Shown here piece after piece: positions 26,293-33,064 of a stretch of 64,000 bases of DNA. The stretch's first letter is position 1. Each line of letters starts with the position of its first letter. Both the position numbers and the translations under genes were made by a program. The DNA comes from an uncultured Tateyamaria sp. (GTDB taxonomy: Bacteria; Pseudomonadota; Alphaproteobacteria; Rhodobacterales; Rhodobacteraceae). Under the pieces are notes generated by a model, which was given only the letters and a program-made list of their open reading frames with translations, searched no databases and was not told where the DNA came from. The stretch lies in the NCBI RefSeq assembly GCF_947503415.1, contig NZ_CANNDS010000001.1:1584501-1648500 (forward strand). Reading direction: 5' to 3'.

Positions 26293-27582
26293 ATGAGCAA
26301 TCCTCCCGTGACCCCGACTGAGCGGCTGTACAAGATCGTGCAGGACGGAATGTGCGTTGGCTGTGGCCTATGCCAGTCGATTGCGGGACCGGATACCATT
26401 CGTGTCGCCCGGGTCGAGAACGGCTATGAACGCCCCGTCGTGACCGGCACGCTTGATCACGAAACGATGGACCGGATCGAAGACGTTTGCCCCGGCAAGC
26501 GCCTTGAAGGGTTGCCGCCCGAACTGCAAAACGCCAACACGCAGATGGACATGGTTTGGGGGCCGTACCAGAGTATGGCACTGGCCTATGCCACTGATCC
26601 CGAGGTCCGTTTCAAAGGGTCAAAAGGCGGCGTGTTGACCGCTTTGGGCCAGTACCTGATCGACACCAAAAAGGTCGTTTTCATATTGCACGTGAAGCAA
26701 TCTGGCACATACGCCACCTTTGGCGAGCGCCACGAGAGCCACAGTGCGGCGGACGTTCTGGATGGAGCCGGATCGCGCTATGGCCCCGCCGCGCCGCTTG
26801 TGGATGTGCTGGAGGTGCTGGACCGGGGCCAGCCTTTCGCTTTTGTTGGCAAACCCTGTGACATCTCTGCCCTACGCAATCTTGCGCGCCACGATCCGCG
26901 CGTGAACGAACTGGTGAAATACTGGCTGACGCCTGTTTGTGGCGGGTTCATGCCTCCGCAGGACATGACACGCTTTCTGCGCCAGAAATACGATGTCGAG
27001 AACGAAGCGCTGACCGAATACCGTTTCCGCGGCCACGGCTGTCCCGGCAAAATGCGCTTTGCCACCAAGGACGGGGAGGCGCAGGAGTTTCGGTATACCG
27101 ACTTTTGGGGCACGGATCAAAGCATGTGGACGCTGCCGTTCCGATGCAAGGTCTGCCCCGATGGGATCGGAGAGGCGGCGGATATTGCGGCGTCCGACAC
27201 CTGGCCGGGCGGCTCGCCCGATCCTTCGACAGAAGATGATGACCTCGGCACCAACGCGGTGATTGCGCGCACCAAGGCGGGTCTTGATCTGCTGAATGCG
27301 GCTCAAGAGGCTGGCTATGTCACGGTCGAAAATGAGTGCAATCCTCGGTACTTGGACGAGGTGCAGCCGCATCAGACCAAAAAGAAGCTTGCCGTGCTGG
27401 CCCGGTTCGAAGGTCTGCGTGCCGAAGGGCATACCGTGCCGCGTGCGGTCGGGCTGAGGCTTGATGAGTTGAAGGCGACTTTGTCTGACGAGGACTACAA
27501 GTGGCAGTTCGACGGTGCCCGTGAGCGTGTGCGCGTCGGCAAGGCCAGCGAGCCGACGCCGAAGCTTTGGGAAAGACAGTGA
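26293..27582 (+). CDS. FrhB/FdhB-like Coenzyme F420 hydrogenase beta-subunit family protein
   Basis: An intact protein of about 429 residues starting MSNPPVTPTERLYKIVQDG. An N-terminal Cys cluster (MCVGCGLCQSIAG) suggests an iron-sulfur site, and the C-terminal FrhB domain shows FVGKPCDISALRNLARHDPRV, RGHGCPGKM and CKVCPDGIGEAADIAASDTW. Members reduce or oxidise flavin, F420 or related electron carriers; F420 itself is not expected in this group, so the true partner is unknown. It is the only surviving gene of the plus-strand side of the decayed island. Its frame is open upstream because the Rieske remnant has lost its stop. Confidence 0.85.
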   Translation: MSNPPVTPTERLYKIVQDGMCVGCGLCQSIAGPDTIRVARVENGYERPVVTGTLDHETMDRIEDVCPGKRLEGLPPELQNANTQMDMVWGPYQSMALAYATDPEVRFKGSKGGVLTALGQYLIDTKKVVFILHVKQSGTYATFGERHESHSAADVLDGAGSRYGPAAPLVDVLEVLDRGQPFAFVGKPCDISALRNLARHDPRVNELVKYWLTPVCGGFMPPQDMTRFLRQKYDVENEALTEYRFRGHGCPGKMRFATKDGEAQEFRYTDFWGTDQSMWTLPFRCKVCPDGIGEAADIAASDTWPGGSPDPSTEDDDLGTNAVIARTKAGLDLLNAAQEAGYVTVENECNPRYLDEVQPHQTKKKLAVLARFEGLRAEGHTVPRAVGLRLDELKATLSDEDYKWQFDGARERVRVGKASEPTPKLWERQ

Positions 27583-27759
27583 GTGTCGCTGCTGCGGAAG
27601 GTGTTCAACCAACCAAAAAGATGAGCGGCACTCCTTGTGTTTGACGAGAGCGCAATGCGGTAATCGTCCGCCGCAGGTGTCCGAGCTCATAGCTCCTATG
27701 CCGTGTCGAAACCACCAACACGGACGAAAGCCACACAGGCCTTGCGACTCACATATTTG

Positions 27760-27774
27760 GAACATAACATGAAC
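27760..27774. promoter_or_regulatory. LexA (SOS) box upstream of the radical SAM/UdgX operon
   Basis: GAACATAACATGAAC is an exact GAAC-N7-GAAC, the direct-repeat operator described for LexA in Rhodobacter and other alphaproteobacteria (GTTC-N7-GTTC on the other strand). It ends two bases before the start codon at 27777. The position implies direct repression of a transcript starting close to the gene. The downstream products are DNA-repair proteins, which fits SOS control. Confidence 0.8.
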
Positions 27775-27776
27775 AA

Positions 27777-29012
27777 ATGGCTTCCAAATCACTTCAACAG
27801 AAACTCGCAGTGCTGAGCGATGCGGCAAAATACGACGCATCCTGTGCCTCGTCCGGGTCAAACAAACGCGACAGCCGAGATGGCAAAGGCCTTGGGTCGA
27901 ACACGGGGGCGGGGATCTGTCATTCCTACGCGCCTGACGGCCGGTGCATCAGTCTTCTGAAGATCCTGATGACCAATTTCTGTATTTATGACTGCGTGTA
28001 TTGCGTGAATCGTGTGTCGTCCAACGTTGAACGGGCGCGGTTCAGCGTCGACGAGGTTGTGAAGCTGACAATTGACTTTTATCGGCGCAATTATATCGAA
28101 GGACTGTTCCTTTCGTCCGGCATCATACGCTCACCCGACAAGACCATGGAGGACATGGTGCGTATCGTGCGCAAACTGCGCCACGAAGAGAATTTTCGGG
28201 GCTATATCCACCTAAAGACCATCCCAGATGCAGCGCCTGAATTGATAGAAGAGGCGGGGCGATTGGCGGATCGGTTGTCGATCAATGTCGAACTGCCGAC
28301 CGACGCCGCTGTGGAAGCCTTCGCGCCTGAAAAGAACCCGTCTCAAATCCGGAAAGCAATGGCCGACGTCAAATTGCGCCGGCGTGTGTCAAAGGACAAA
28401 TCGCACACCGGACGCCGCCCTGCGCCCTTTGCCCCGGCAGGCCAGTCAACCCAAGTGATCATCGGTGCAGATGCCGCGAACGATCTGACGATTCTGAAAC
28501 AATCGACGCGCTTATACGGCAGCTACGATCTGAAGCGGGTCTATTACTCGGCTTTTTCGCCAATACCGGATGCGTCATCGCGCCTGCCCTTGATTAGTCC
28601 GCCTCTGCAACGCGAGCACCGTCTGTATCAGGCAGACTGGCTTTTGCGGTTCTACGACTTTCAGTTGCACGAGATTGCGGACGCGGCGCTTGGCGGAAAT
28701 CTGGATCTCGATATCGACCCCAAACTTGCCTGGGCTTTGGCCCATCGCGACCTTTTCCCGGTCGATGTGAATACCGCGCCGCGCGATGTCTTGTTGCGGG
28801 TGCCGGGATTTGGCGTGAAAACCGTGAACCGCATTCTGACCACGCGGCGGCACCGCACTCTGCGATACGAAGACATCAACCGGATGGGCGCCTCTATGAA
28901 AAAAGCGCGCGCCTTTGTCAGTGCGCTGGGTTGGAGCCCGCATGGACTGTCCGACACCGCGGACTTGCGGGCCACGTTCGCGCCCCCGCCAGAACAGCTG
29001 ACCTTGTTCTGA
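27777..29012 (+). CDS. Putative DNA modification/repair radical SAM protein
   Basis: A 411-residue radical SAM protein, SplB-related, of the family regularly paired with UdgX. The [4Fe-4S] motif is CIYDCVYC (Cys69, Cys73, Cys76). AAKYDASCASSGSNKRDS opens the protein, and a C-terminal helix-hairpin-helix (LLRVPGFGVKTVNRIL) suggests DNA binding. The family is thought to act on DNA lesions, but no reaction is proven that I know of. No strong ribosome site precedes the ATG, and the LexA box occupies that space, so translation may be leaderless. Seven bases separate it from the UdgX gene. Confidence 0.92.
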   Translation: MASKSLQQKLAVLSDAAKYDASCASSGSNKRDSRDGKGLGSNTGAGICHSYAPDGRCISLLKILMTNFCIYDCVYCVNRVSSNVERARFSVDEVVKLTIDFYRRNYIEGLFLSSGIIRSPDKTMEDMVRIVRKLRHEENFRGYIHLKTIPDAAPELIEEAGRLADRLSINVELPTDAAVEAFAPEKNPSQIRKAMADVKLRRRVSKDKSHTGRRPAPFAPAGQSTQVIIGADAANDLTILKQSTRLYGSYDLKRVYYSAFSPIPDASSRLPLISPPLQREHRLYQADWLLRFYDFQLHEIADAALGGNLDLDIDPKLAWALAHRDLFPVDVNTAPRDVLLRVPGFGVKTVNRILTTRRHRTLRYEDINRMGASMKKARAFVSALGWSPHGLSDTADLRATFAPPPEQLTLF

Positions 29013-29019
29013 GGCTGCG

Positions 29020-30465
29020 ATGACTCAGCGCATTGTCTTGCCGCGTCTCGGGACCGGAACAGCTTGGCGCGACAGTGCGCGCGTGTGTCTTGCGATGAAC
29101 CTGCACCCAAACGATGTGCGTTGGAGTGACACCGCCGAGGACAGTTCGCTGTTTGACGCTGCGCCGGATGCACCGCCCGCCGTACATGATCAGGCAAAGG
29201 TGCCCAAAGCGTTTGTGTCTCTCGCACAGTCGGTTGTCTGGCACACAGACGCGGACAGGTTTGATCGACTTTACGCCGCACTCTACCGCATCCGCAGCAC
29301 CCCGACCTTGATCCGCGACCGTGCGGATCCGGCCATCGCGCAACTGCGCAAGATGGAAAAGGCGGTGCATCGGTGTCAGCACAAGATGAAGGCGTTCGTC
29401 CGTTTCCGCGAGATTGGTGATCCAACCGCACCTCGGCGCAGCTTTGCGGCCTGGTTTGAGCCGACGCACAACACCATGGAGCCGACGGCGGACTTCTTCG
29501 CCAAGCGGTTCGCGGACATGGATTGGCGCATCGTGACCCCGTCAGTCTCTGCGATTTTTGAGGGCGGTAAACTGTGCTTTGCGCTCGATCTGCCGCGGCC
29601 GGATTTCCCTGAAGATGCCAACGAGAAGCTGTGGACCACCTATTTCTGCAACATCTTCAATCCGGCGCGGTTGAAGGTGAATGCCATGACATCGGAGATG
29701 CCCAAGAAGTACTGGAAAAACCTGCCTGAAGCCGCGTCCATCCCGCACCTGATTGCAGGCGCTCCGGCCCGCGCCCGCGCCATGGCTGACGCCGCTCCGA
29801 CCTTGCCACCTGTGCGCACAGCGCGGGTACAGCGTGCCGCCGCTGACTTTGACACCGCATGGAAAGGGCCCGGCGACGCCTTGGGTGCGGCCCTGTCGGC
29901 ATGCACCCGGTGCCCCCTGCACGCCACTGCAACGCAAGCCGTGGCCGGATGCGGCCCAGACACTGCGCGTCTGATGATCGTGGGCGAGCAACCGGGTGAT
30001 CAAGAGGACCTCACCGGTCAACCGTTTTCTGGCCCGGCTGGCAAAGTATTGGATGGGGCGTTTGCGCAGGCCGGGGTTGATCGGGAAGGCGTCTATCTGA
30101 CCAACGCGGTGAAGCATTTCAAACATATCGTCCGAGGGAAACGGCGCATCCATCAAAGCCCAGACAGAACTGAGATTGAGCATTGCCGTTTCTGGTTGGA
30201 TGCGGAAATTCGACGTATCCAACCCAAGATCATCGTTGCGATGGGCGCGACGGCTGCCATGGCCCTCACCGGTGACCGTCGTGATATTCTGAAACGGCGC
30301 GGGCACTTGGAAACTGGACTATGCGGTCGTCCAGTCATGATAACAGTTCACCCGTCGCACATTTTGCGAACGCCGGATAAGGCGAAACAGAATGAATTGC
30401 GCGAGATGTTGGTAGGCGATTTGTCCGGCGCACATGCCATTTCATTGACAGAAACGGCGATGTGA
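29020..30465 (+). CDS. DUF4130 plus UdgX-type uracil-DNA-binding protein
   Basis: A 481-residue two-domain protein. The N-terminal half (to about 270) matches the DUF4130 repair-associated domain (RKMEKAVHRCQHKMKAFVRF, MPKKYWKNLPEA). The C-terminal half is a family 4-like uracil-DNA glycosylase fold with CTRCPLHATATQAV, GEQPG (322-326) and the UdgX loop KRRIH (374-378). In mycobacterial UdgX the matching His forms a covalent bond to the uracil site, so His378 is the predicted cross-linking residue. Second gene of the LexA-boxed operon, and convergent with the next gene. Confidence 0.93.
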   Translation: MTQRIVLPRLGTGTAWRDSARVCLAMNLHPNDVRWSDTAEDSSLFDAAPDAPPAVHDQAKVPKAFVSLAQSVVWHTDADRFDRLYAALYRIRSTPTLIRDRADPAIAQLRKMEKAVHRCQHKMKAFVRFREIGDPTAPRRSFAAWFEPTHNTMEPTADFFAKRFADMDWRIVTPSVSAIFEGGKLCFALDLPRPDFPEDANEKLWTTYFCNIFNPARLKVNAMTSEMPKKYWKNLPEAASIPHLIAGAPARARAMADAAPTLPPVRTARVQRAAADFDTAWKGPGDALGAALSACTRCPLHATATQAVAGCGPDTARLMIVGEQPGDQEDLTGQPFSGPAGKVLDGAFAQAGVDREGVYLTNAVKHFKHIVRGKRRIHQSPDRTEIEHCRFWLDAEIRRIQPKIIVAMGATAAMALTGDRRDILKRRGHLETGLCGRPVMITVHPSHILRTPDKAKQNELREMLVGDLSGAHAISLTETAM

Positions 30466-32647: not shown

Positions 32648-33064
32648 GTGAGCAACGTCAAACAGCTACGAGACAAGCAGCCTGAGAATGAGAAGATCAC
32701 AATCAACCTCGGCTTTGTCGACCTTGGGCGCATCGACCTGCTGGTTCAGGAAGGGTTCTATTCAAACAGAAGTGACCTGATCCGCACAGCAATTCGGAAC
32801 CAGTTGGACACGCATACTGGCGTGGTCAGCAAAACGCTTGAACGACATACGATGGAACTGGGTTTGCGCGACTACTCGGTCGCTGATCTGGAGACATTGC
32901 GGGACGCCGGCGAGATGCTGCACGTCAAGGTCGTCGGGCTCGCGCGGATCGATGGTGCCGTAACACCGGAACTGGCACTGCAAACCATCGGGTCCATCAC
33001 GGTGCTGGGTGCCTTGCAGGCCAGTACGGACGTCAAGAAAGCACTTGCCGACCGCATCAAGTAA
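32648..33064 (+). CDS. CopG/ParD-type ribbon-helix-helix regulator
   Basis: About 138 residues starting MSNVKQLRDKQ. The GTG at 32648 has GGAG seven bases ahead, whereas the ATG two codons upstream would be only one base from it. The RHH DNA-binding unit is ENEKITINLGFVDLGRIDLL with RSDLIRTAIRNQL, residues about 13-55. The C-terminal half (YSVADLETLRDAG, HVKVVGLARI) is longer than a plain CopG and may bind a ligand or partner. It precedes the PHB-depolymerase-type gene by 28 bases, so it probably controls that gene and itself. Confidence 0.85.
   Translation: MSNVKQLRDKQPENEKITINLGFVDLGRIDLLVQEGFYSNRSDLIRTAIRNQLDTHTGVVSKTLERHTMELGLRDYSVADLETLRDAGEMLHVKVVGLARIDGAVTPELALQTIGSITVLGALQASTDVKKALADRIK

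Follow-up and report, generated by a model that had tools for sequence, protein, structure and literature searches.

Within a 64,000-nucleotide stretch of genome from an uncultured Tateyamaria sp. (contig NZ_CANNDS010000001.1, positions 1,584,501 to 1,648,500; the whole stretch is referred to here as the window), a gene for a radical S-adenosylmethionine (SAM) protein and a gene for a DUF4130-UdgX fusion protein were found in tandem behind a LexA box, and control of this operon by LexA is, on the sequence evidence, nearly certain. The reading favored here, and considered the probable one, is that the two genes encode a LexA-repressed, SOS-induced and clamp-recruited lesion-processing pair, with UdgX as an optional, uracil-capturing add-on. 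Established by sequence comparison are the box and its conservation, the shape of the promoter, a clade-wise swap of operator, a clamp-binding motif, a set of invariant cysteines and the optional nature of UdgX.

The box, GAACATAACATGAAC (positions 27760-27774, plus strand), is a perfect GAAC-N7-GAAC that is conserved in relatives and ends 2 bases before the ATG of the radical SAM gene at 27777, in agreement with the first-pass annotation of this DNA, which had been made from the letters alone. By count, such a match is worthless; two exact copies occur in the window against 2.04 expected, and the second of these (minus strand, 32744-32758; GAACCCTTCCTGAAC) lies within chance expectation. Conservation of the site was followed first among 80 named relatives, all 80 of which carry the exact box within a 295-base stretch around the start, compared with 8 of 2226 other stretches of that length from the same loci. 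Over the same stretch, the reversed motif was found at no locus, and none of eight other spacers occurred at more than one. With 73 of the 80, the protein match begins at the ATG and the box ends 2 to 4 bases upstream of it in 72; the exception (L113) has its sole box on the reverse strand, at -44. For the remaining seven, the match begins at residue 3 to 5, and the distance, taken from the first matched residue rather than from the ATG, is 21 to 27 bases.

A second set comprised 26 full-length loci of the same bacterial family, the window's own included, and was searched from -250 to +60. The exact box was present in 25, two of them with the box on the other strand, while the 26th departs from it by one mismatch; the reversed motif occurred in none of the 26 over this interval. 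The set was drawn from 29 places after L057-L059 (a split gene in G147 and a weak hit in G051) had been set aside, and it overlaps the 80 named relatives by at least five loci. Outside the family, 60 of 61 loci over the cut-off were examined, the fragment G193 being left out. The box was found in 42 of the 43 alphaproteobacterial loci; for Caulobacter, the accessible part of a review (PMC9578287) gives GTTCN7GTTC, which is the window's motif as read on the opposite strand. Among the 17 beta- and gammaproteobacterial loci, GAAC-N7-GAAC was absent from all, and CTGT-N8-ACAG was present in exact form in 12 and in 15 when one mismatch was allowed, all 15 sites being no more than 80 bases from the start. 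Nine decoy patterns, applied to the full stretch of these loci, gave no exact match in any of the 17, and matches with one mismatch in 0 to 4. Operator type, with near matches counted, amounts to three changes on the tree and tracks clade, as selection for LexA control predicts. The first-pass annotation had proposed SOS control and named a lack of the box upstream of orthologs as the outcome that would tell against it; the box proved to be conserved, and this conservation together with the clade-wise change of operator strongly supports the proposal.

Alignment of the upstream regions on the box (102 of 106 loci, 97 distinct sequences; L113, L042, L045, and L054 left out) disclosed a putative promoter. 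A -35 element, TTGCGA (27742..27747, plus strand), lies 17 bases ahead of a -10 element, TAACAT (27765..27770, plus strand), that is contained within the LexA box, and the ATG begins 7 bases past the last base of the latter. Among the 97 distinct sequences, the -35 columns, 18 to 16 bases ahead of the box, hold T at a frequency of.77, T at.93 and G at.91 (0.90, 1.51, and 1.46 bits), and all other columns from -50 to -1 carry at most 0.29 bit, save -15 with 0.36. Positions 6-11 of the box form the TATAAT-like -10 (T.99, A.95, T.58, A.44, A.45, T.62). With this layout, the mRNA is probably leaderless, and LexA would cover the -10.

The first gene (27777..29012, plus strand) encodes a protein of 411 residues that belongs to TIGR03916 (rSAM_link_UDG; 574.5 bits, cut-off 343.5). 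Its C terminus carries QLTLF (28995..29009, plus strand), which fits QxxLF, the more general form of the beta-clamp-binding consensus QL[S/D]LF as given in the accessible part of PMC12309361. Of 141 radical SAM proteins, 123 match the stricter pattern Q[LM][STDEAGN]L[FLWI] within their final 16 residues, 45 of them reading exactly QLSLF, compared with a rate of 0.0005 in random draws of the same composition, and the pattern occurs nowhere else in the 141; the 18 without it all have a hydrophobic tail led by Q. Five divergent members (37-51% identity), from Bacillota, Fusobacteriota, Gemmatimonadota, Acinetobacter, and a gut phage contig, were hand-picked from hit lists and inspected with a looser pattern that had no control; within their last 39 residues they hold QLSLF, QLKLF, QLSLW, QLSLGF, and QLSFF. 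The strict pattern was absent from all 56 downstream open reading frames (ORFs) of over 250 residues (that of L169 not being DUF4130). The motif suggests that the radical SAM protein binds the clamp through its C-terminal tail, and the tail is the clearest new clue to where the enzyme may work. Placement of the pair in DNA-damage repair, as in the first-pass annotation, gains further support from this motif, and weak support from a helix-hairpin-helix match (residues 329-358; 28761..28850, plus strand). The latter, to Pfam HHH_3, was reported in 28 of 28 members at an expect value (E) of up to 0.1, the best being 6.1e-6; for the window's protein it reached E 0.0048 and 17.4 bits, below the Pfam cut-off of 27.

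The CX3CX2C motif of the radical SAM superfamily is present as CIYDCVYC (27981..28004, plus strand), and its cysteines, C69, C73, and C76, are invariant in 28 of 28 sequences. Three more cysteines, all N-terminal to this motif, are C23, C48 (with H49 next to it), and C57 (codons within 27843..27947, plus strand); they occur without exception in 28 diverse and 66 closer sequences and are kept in four of the five divergent members. It is a fair guess that C23, C48, and C57 hold a second Fe-S site. The member lacking them, a relative on a Gemmatirosa plasmid (L211; 37% identity), retains CX3CX2C and QLSLW and perhaps represents a separate subfamily. Membership in the SplB-like PA0069 family was considered and rejected; NCBIfam, which holds NF033668 (rSAM_PA0069), lists TIGR03916 alone for the window's protein at E up to 0.001. 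Fold searches with the predicted model returned only the radical SAM barrel, with the rows for lipoyl synthase, NifB, PFL-AE, and HydE close together, and profile searches for solved relatives of the family gave only short, weak stretches (best E 0.017). Of the 80 named radical SAM proteins, 64 entered the structure alignments, as did L201, and of the 72 located second proteins, 54 did; in alignment A1, the rows of L060 and L095 are one residue short.

Seven bases separate the radical SAM ORF from the ATG of the second gene (29020..30465, plus strand), which encodes a fusion protein of 481 residues. Its two halves match TIGR03915 (residues 12-238; 190.4 bits, cut-off 112.25) and TIGR03914/UdgX (residues 241-469; 295.7 bits, cut-off 189.95), and Pfam matches to the operon's products are Radical_SAM, DUF4130 (residues 79-237; 29254..29730, plus strand), and UDG. 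Both coordinates and profile matches agree with the earlier description of a 7-base gap followed by a DUF4130-UdgX gene with the loop KRRIH. In the UdgX half, motif A, GEQPG (29983..29997, plus strand), aligns with the same residues of solved UdgX, and the histidine of the R-loop KRRIH (30139..30153, plus strand) aligns with H109 of Mycobacterium smegmatis UdgX, the cross-linking residue according to the accessible text of PMC10359453. Motif B, HPSxxLR, reads HPSHILR in the window. Among the named loci, 72 have a UdgX hit; of these, GEQPGDxED was found in 70 and the R-loop pattern in 68, with two more visible by eye; motif B was present in 58, the other 14 having no match in the aligned stretch. 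In fold searches directed at DUF4130, rows of the uracil-DNA glycosylase (UDG) fold took up both lists of matches as displayed, and nothing on a new fold follows from them. The UdgX part also matches a UDG-like region near the N terminus of the phiLo phage family-A DNA polymerase (PDB 9qhs).

DUF4130 accompanies the radical SAM gene in 80 of 80 named loci and UdgX in 72; seven have DUF4130 without UdgX, and one (L068) is cut off. At the 60 loci outside the family, DUF4130 was found at 58 and UdgX at 40, the latter being absent from 17, located further on at two and cut at one. Overall, UdgX is absent from 24 of 139 counted loci. This count left out two of 141 (L068 and L199), scored L169 and L171 as present given a UdgX further on, and treated L144 and L149, whose genomes have UdgX elsewhere, as loci without it. 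Mapped on the tree, UdgX presence shifts 10 times, with at least 8 of the shifts forced by starred branches, and no UdgX over the cut-off was found anywhere in 15 of 19 genomes checked. At the 24 loci without it, the radical SAM and DUF4130 genes remain, the Q-led tail motif is kept in some form at all, and the box is retained at most (exact GAAC 12, exact CTGT 7, near 3, none 2). Judged by this pattern of loss, UdgX is an accessory, dispensable part; its standing as an obligatory core was rejected on the 10 changes and the 15 genomes, and the emphasis that the first-pass annotation had laid on a suicide uracil binder is too strong, given its absence at 24 of 139 loci.

The same pattern bears on the alternative that UdgX is the heart of the system, where SOS induction would increase a suicide uracil binder whose role is to shield abasic sites, and the radical SAM and DUF4130 proteins would prepare the DNA or resolve adducts. 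Direct fusion in one polypeptide and conservation of GEQPG (70/72) and the R-loop (68/72 by pattern) in the named loci are in keeping with this, as is the shielding role proposed for UdgX in the accessible part of PMC10359453, where its physiological role is also called largely unknown. The repeated changes in UdgX while radical SAM, DUF4130, tail and, mostly, box stay, and the checked genomes with no UdgX over the cut-off, argue the other way, and this alternative appears unlikely. Doubtful, too, is a system for DNA base modification, in which the radical SAM enzyme would make a modified base and UdgX would clear mistakes. The name of the NCBI model leaves modification or repair open, and the accessible part of PMC3765255 describes DUF4130 as an enzyme with a predicted link to mutagenesis, found in association with radical SAM photolyases and uracil glycosylases "which might modify thymines". 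Repair or tolerance is a better fit to the clamp motif and to SOS control across several clades, and the gene is sporadic, being found in 27 of 149 genomes of the family. That the box arose by chance, with the operon outside SOS control, is highly improbable and was rejected, despite a motif count that agrees with chance and no enrichment in window or genome, on its conserved position 2 to 4 bases before the ATG in 72 of 73 loci though the flanks have drifted, and on the presence of their own LexA motif in other clades.

For the favored reading of a clamp-recruited lesion-processing pair, the following sequence of events is envisaged. LexA would sit on the -10 of the probably leaderless promoter until DNA damage opens it. 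The first gene would then yield a radical SAM enzyme that acts on DNA. Anchored to the replication sliding clamp by its QLTLF tail, this enzyme would work on a damaged base with its DUF4130 partner, here fused to UdgX. UdgX, as an optional module, would excise uracil or a related base and remain covalently joined to the abasic site, which it would probably shield; the add-on would be used where uracil-like bases matter. LexA binding, the leaderless mRNA, clamp binding, the second cluster, and lesion processing are all steps that we infer from sequence. A more specific version is offered tentatively and is possible rather than probable: brought by its QLSLF-type tail to the clamp at forks stalled during the SOS response, the enzyme would use radical chemistry and a second Fe-S cluster to remodel a blocking base together with DUF4130, and a uracil-like product would be captured by the fused UdgX.

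The window's own genome encodes a LexA (G000:C2:337978; PF01726, 60.1 bits, cut-off 23.7), and its gene has an exact box 33 bases ahead of the ORF start used. Twelve boxes of this genome, chosen for their AT-rich cores, were examined, and four lie at a recognizable SOS or repair gene, namely lexA, an imuA-like gene (match under the cut-off), pdeM, and a PA0069 radical SAM gene; at the last three, the box lies before or overlaps the start. The last of these boxes (L207; G000:C2:64284-64298) is exact and is located 12 bases ahead of the ORF start, and consequently the genome may have two SOS-controlled radical SAM genes. The box of the imuA-like gene (GAACAAATATAGAAC) recurs in identical form 20 bases ahead of an ORF of 115 residues (L010; G000:C1:308031-308045); this ORF had no NCBIfam match at E up to 0.001 and is a possible new SOS gene.

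Several observations weigh against the favored reading or narrow it. The other eight of the 12 boxes mark no recognizable SOS gene, and the box was rejected as a marker of such genes in this genome, which holds 147 exact copies of GAAC-N7-GAAC against 194 of the reversed motif. No recognized box was present at three loci (L141, L180, and L181), and seven of the 42 boxes in alphaproteobacteria outside the family sit on the other strand. Outside the family, the -35 is also less regular, and the two-base distance is kept in only 10 of 35 plus-strand boxes; the leaderless layout is thus a feature of the family and its near kin rather than of the whole class. The AlphaFold model of the radical SAM protein is of moderate quality (predicted local distance difference test, pLDDT, 71.5) with residues 20-82 under 50, and hence gives no guide to a second cluster. 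Profile searches at E up to 0.01 gave no solved relative of DUF4130, and the role in repair is itself deduced from SOS control, the tail and the partners.

The operon appears to consist of two genes, given that the upstream neighbor encodes an FrhB-like protein ending at 27582 and the downstream neighbor, a FAD-NAD(P)-binding protein, is convergent (both matches below cut-off). Within the family, 26 of the 27 radical SAM genes are over the cut-off and one is split (G147); the same 27 genomes also have DUF4130 and UdgX over the cut-off, and one further genome (G117) has a weak DUF4130 hit. Caulobacter, which served as a control genome, also scores over the cut-off with all three models, and Phaeobacter inhibens is another laboratory alphaproteobacterium with the operon. 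Relatives on mobile records include two from viral contigs, at 61 and 65% identity and one of them partial, together with 10 phage records, all under 60% identity, and 158 plasmid records. The copy in a record titled Nocardioides marinus (L096) groups with the roseobacters on the tree and has an alphaproteobacterial box; the record is probably contaminated or mislabeled.

We take COG4277 to be the TIGR03916 radical SAM family of the window. SOS control of such a pair is already in print and is not new: a COG1573-COG4277 operon of Bacteroidetes was placed under SOS control, and an SOS-controlled uracil-glycosylase system was said to have been reported also in Verrucomicrobia and Alphaproteobacteria (accessible part of PMC8565304). 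In Streptomyces, one LexA-bound radical SAM gene, which may or may not be of this family, is listed in the accessible part of PMC9380542. The accessible parts of PMC6473078 (LexA sites of Dinoroseobacter), PMC3323433, PMC13384398, and PMC9578287 do not mention a radical SAM gene of the window's type. A literature search, with most subscription papers outside its reach, returned nothing on a clamp motif in this protein, on its cysteine triad, on the loss of UdgX or on the layout of the promoter, no paper combining UdgX with radical SAM, a single paper with COG4277, and no radical SAM use among the clamp-related papers listed. As far as the literature was searched, the promoter layout, the clamp tail, the cysteine triad and the dispensability of UdgX thus appear to be new. 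With the tail, the triad and the accessory nature of UdgX, what was a vague repair label becomes open to direct testing.

The closest known system, the COG1573-COG4277 operon, resembles that of the window in having two genes, a uracil-DNA glycosylase and LexA control, and differs from it in its LexA motifs; the accessible part of that account (PMC8565304) says nothing of a clamp motif, a cysteine triad, the loss of UdgX or the layout of the promoter. Enzymes of the SplB type are likewise radical SAM proteins with links to DNA repair and the SOS response (accessible part of PMC8565304), whereas TIGR03916 is the sole NCBIfam match of the window's protein at E up to 0.001. Among two-cluster barrels, lipoyl synthase is the fold row that the model brings up, with NifB, PFL-AE, and HydE within about 1.5 Z of it, and no functional claim is attached to this likeness. 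UdgX of M. smegmatis (6ail), the solved chain of which has 229 residues, is UdgX alone, unlike that of the window, which is fused behind DUF4130 and shares an operon with a radical SAM gene. The clamp client PolC has a C-terminal motif of the QLSLF type (accessible part of PMC12309361), as does the window's protein, which differs from it in being a radical SAM protein rather than a polymerase and in that its binding to the clamp is predicted.

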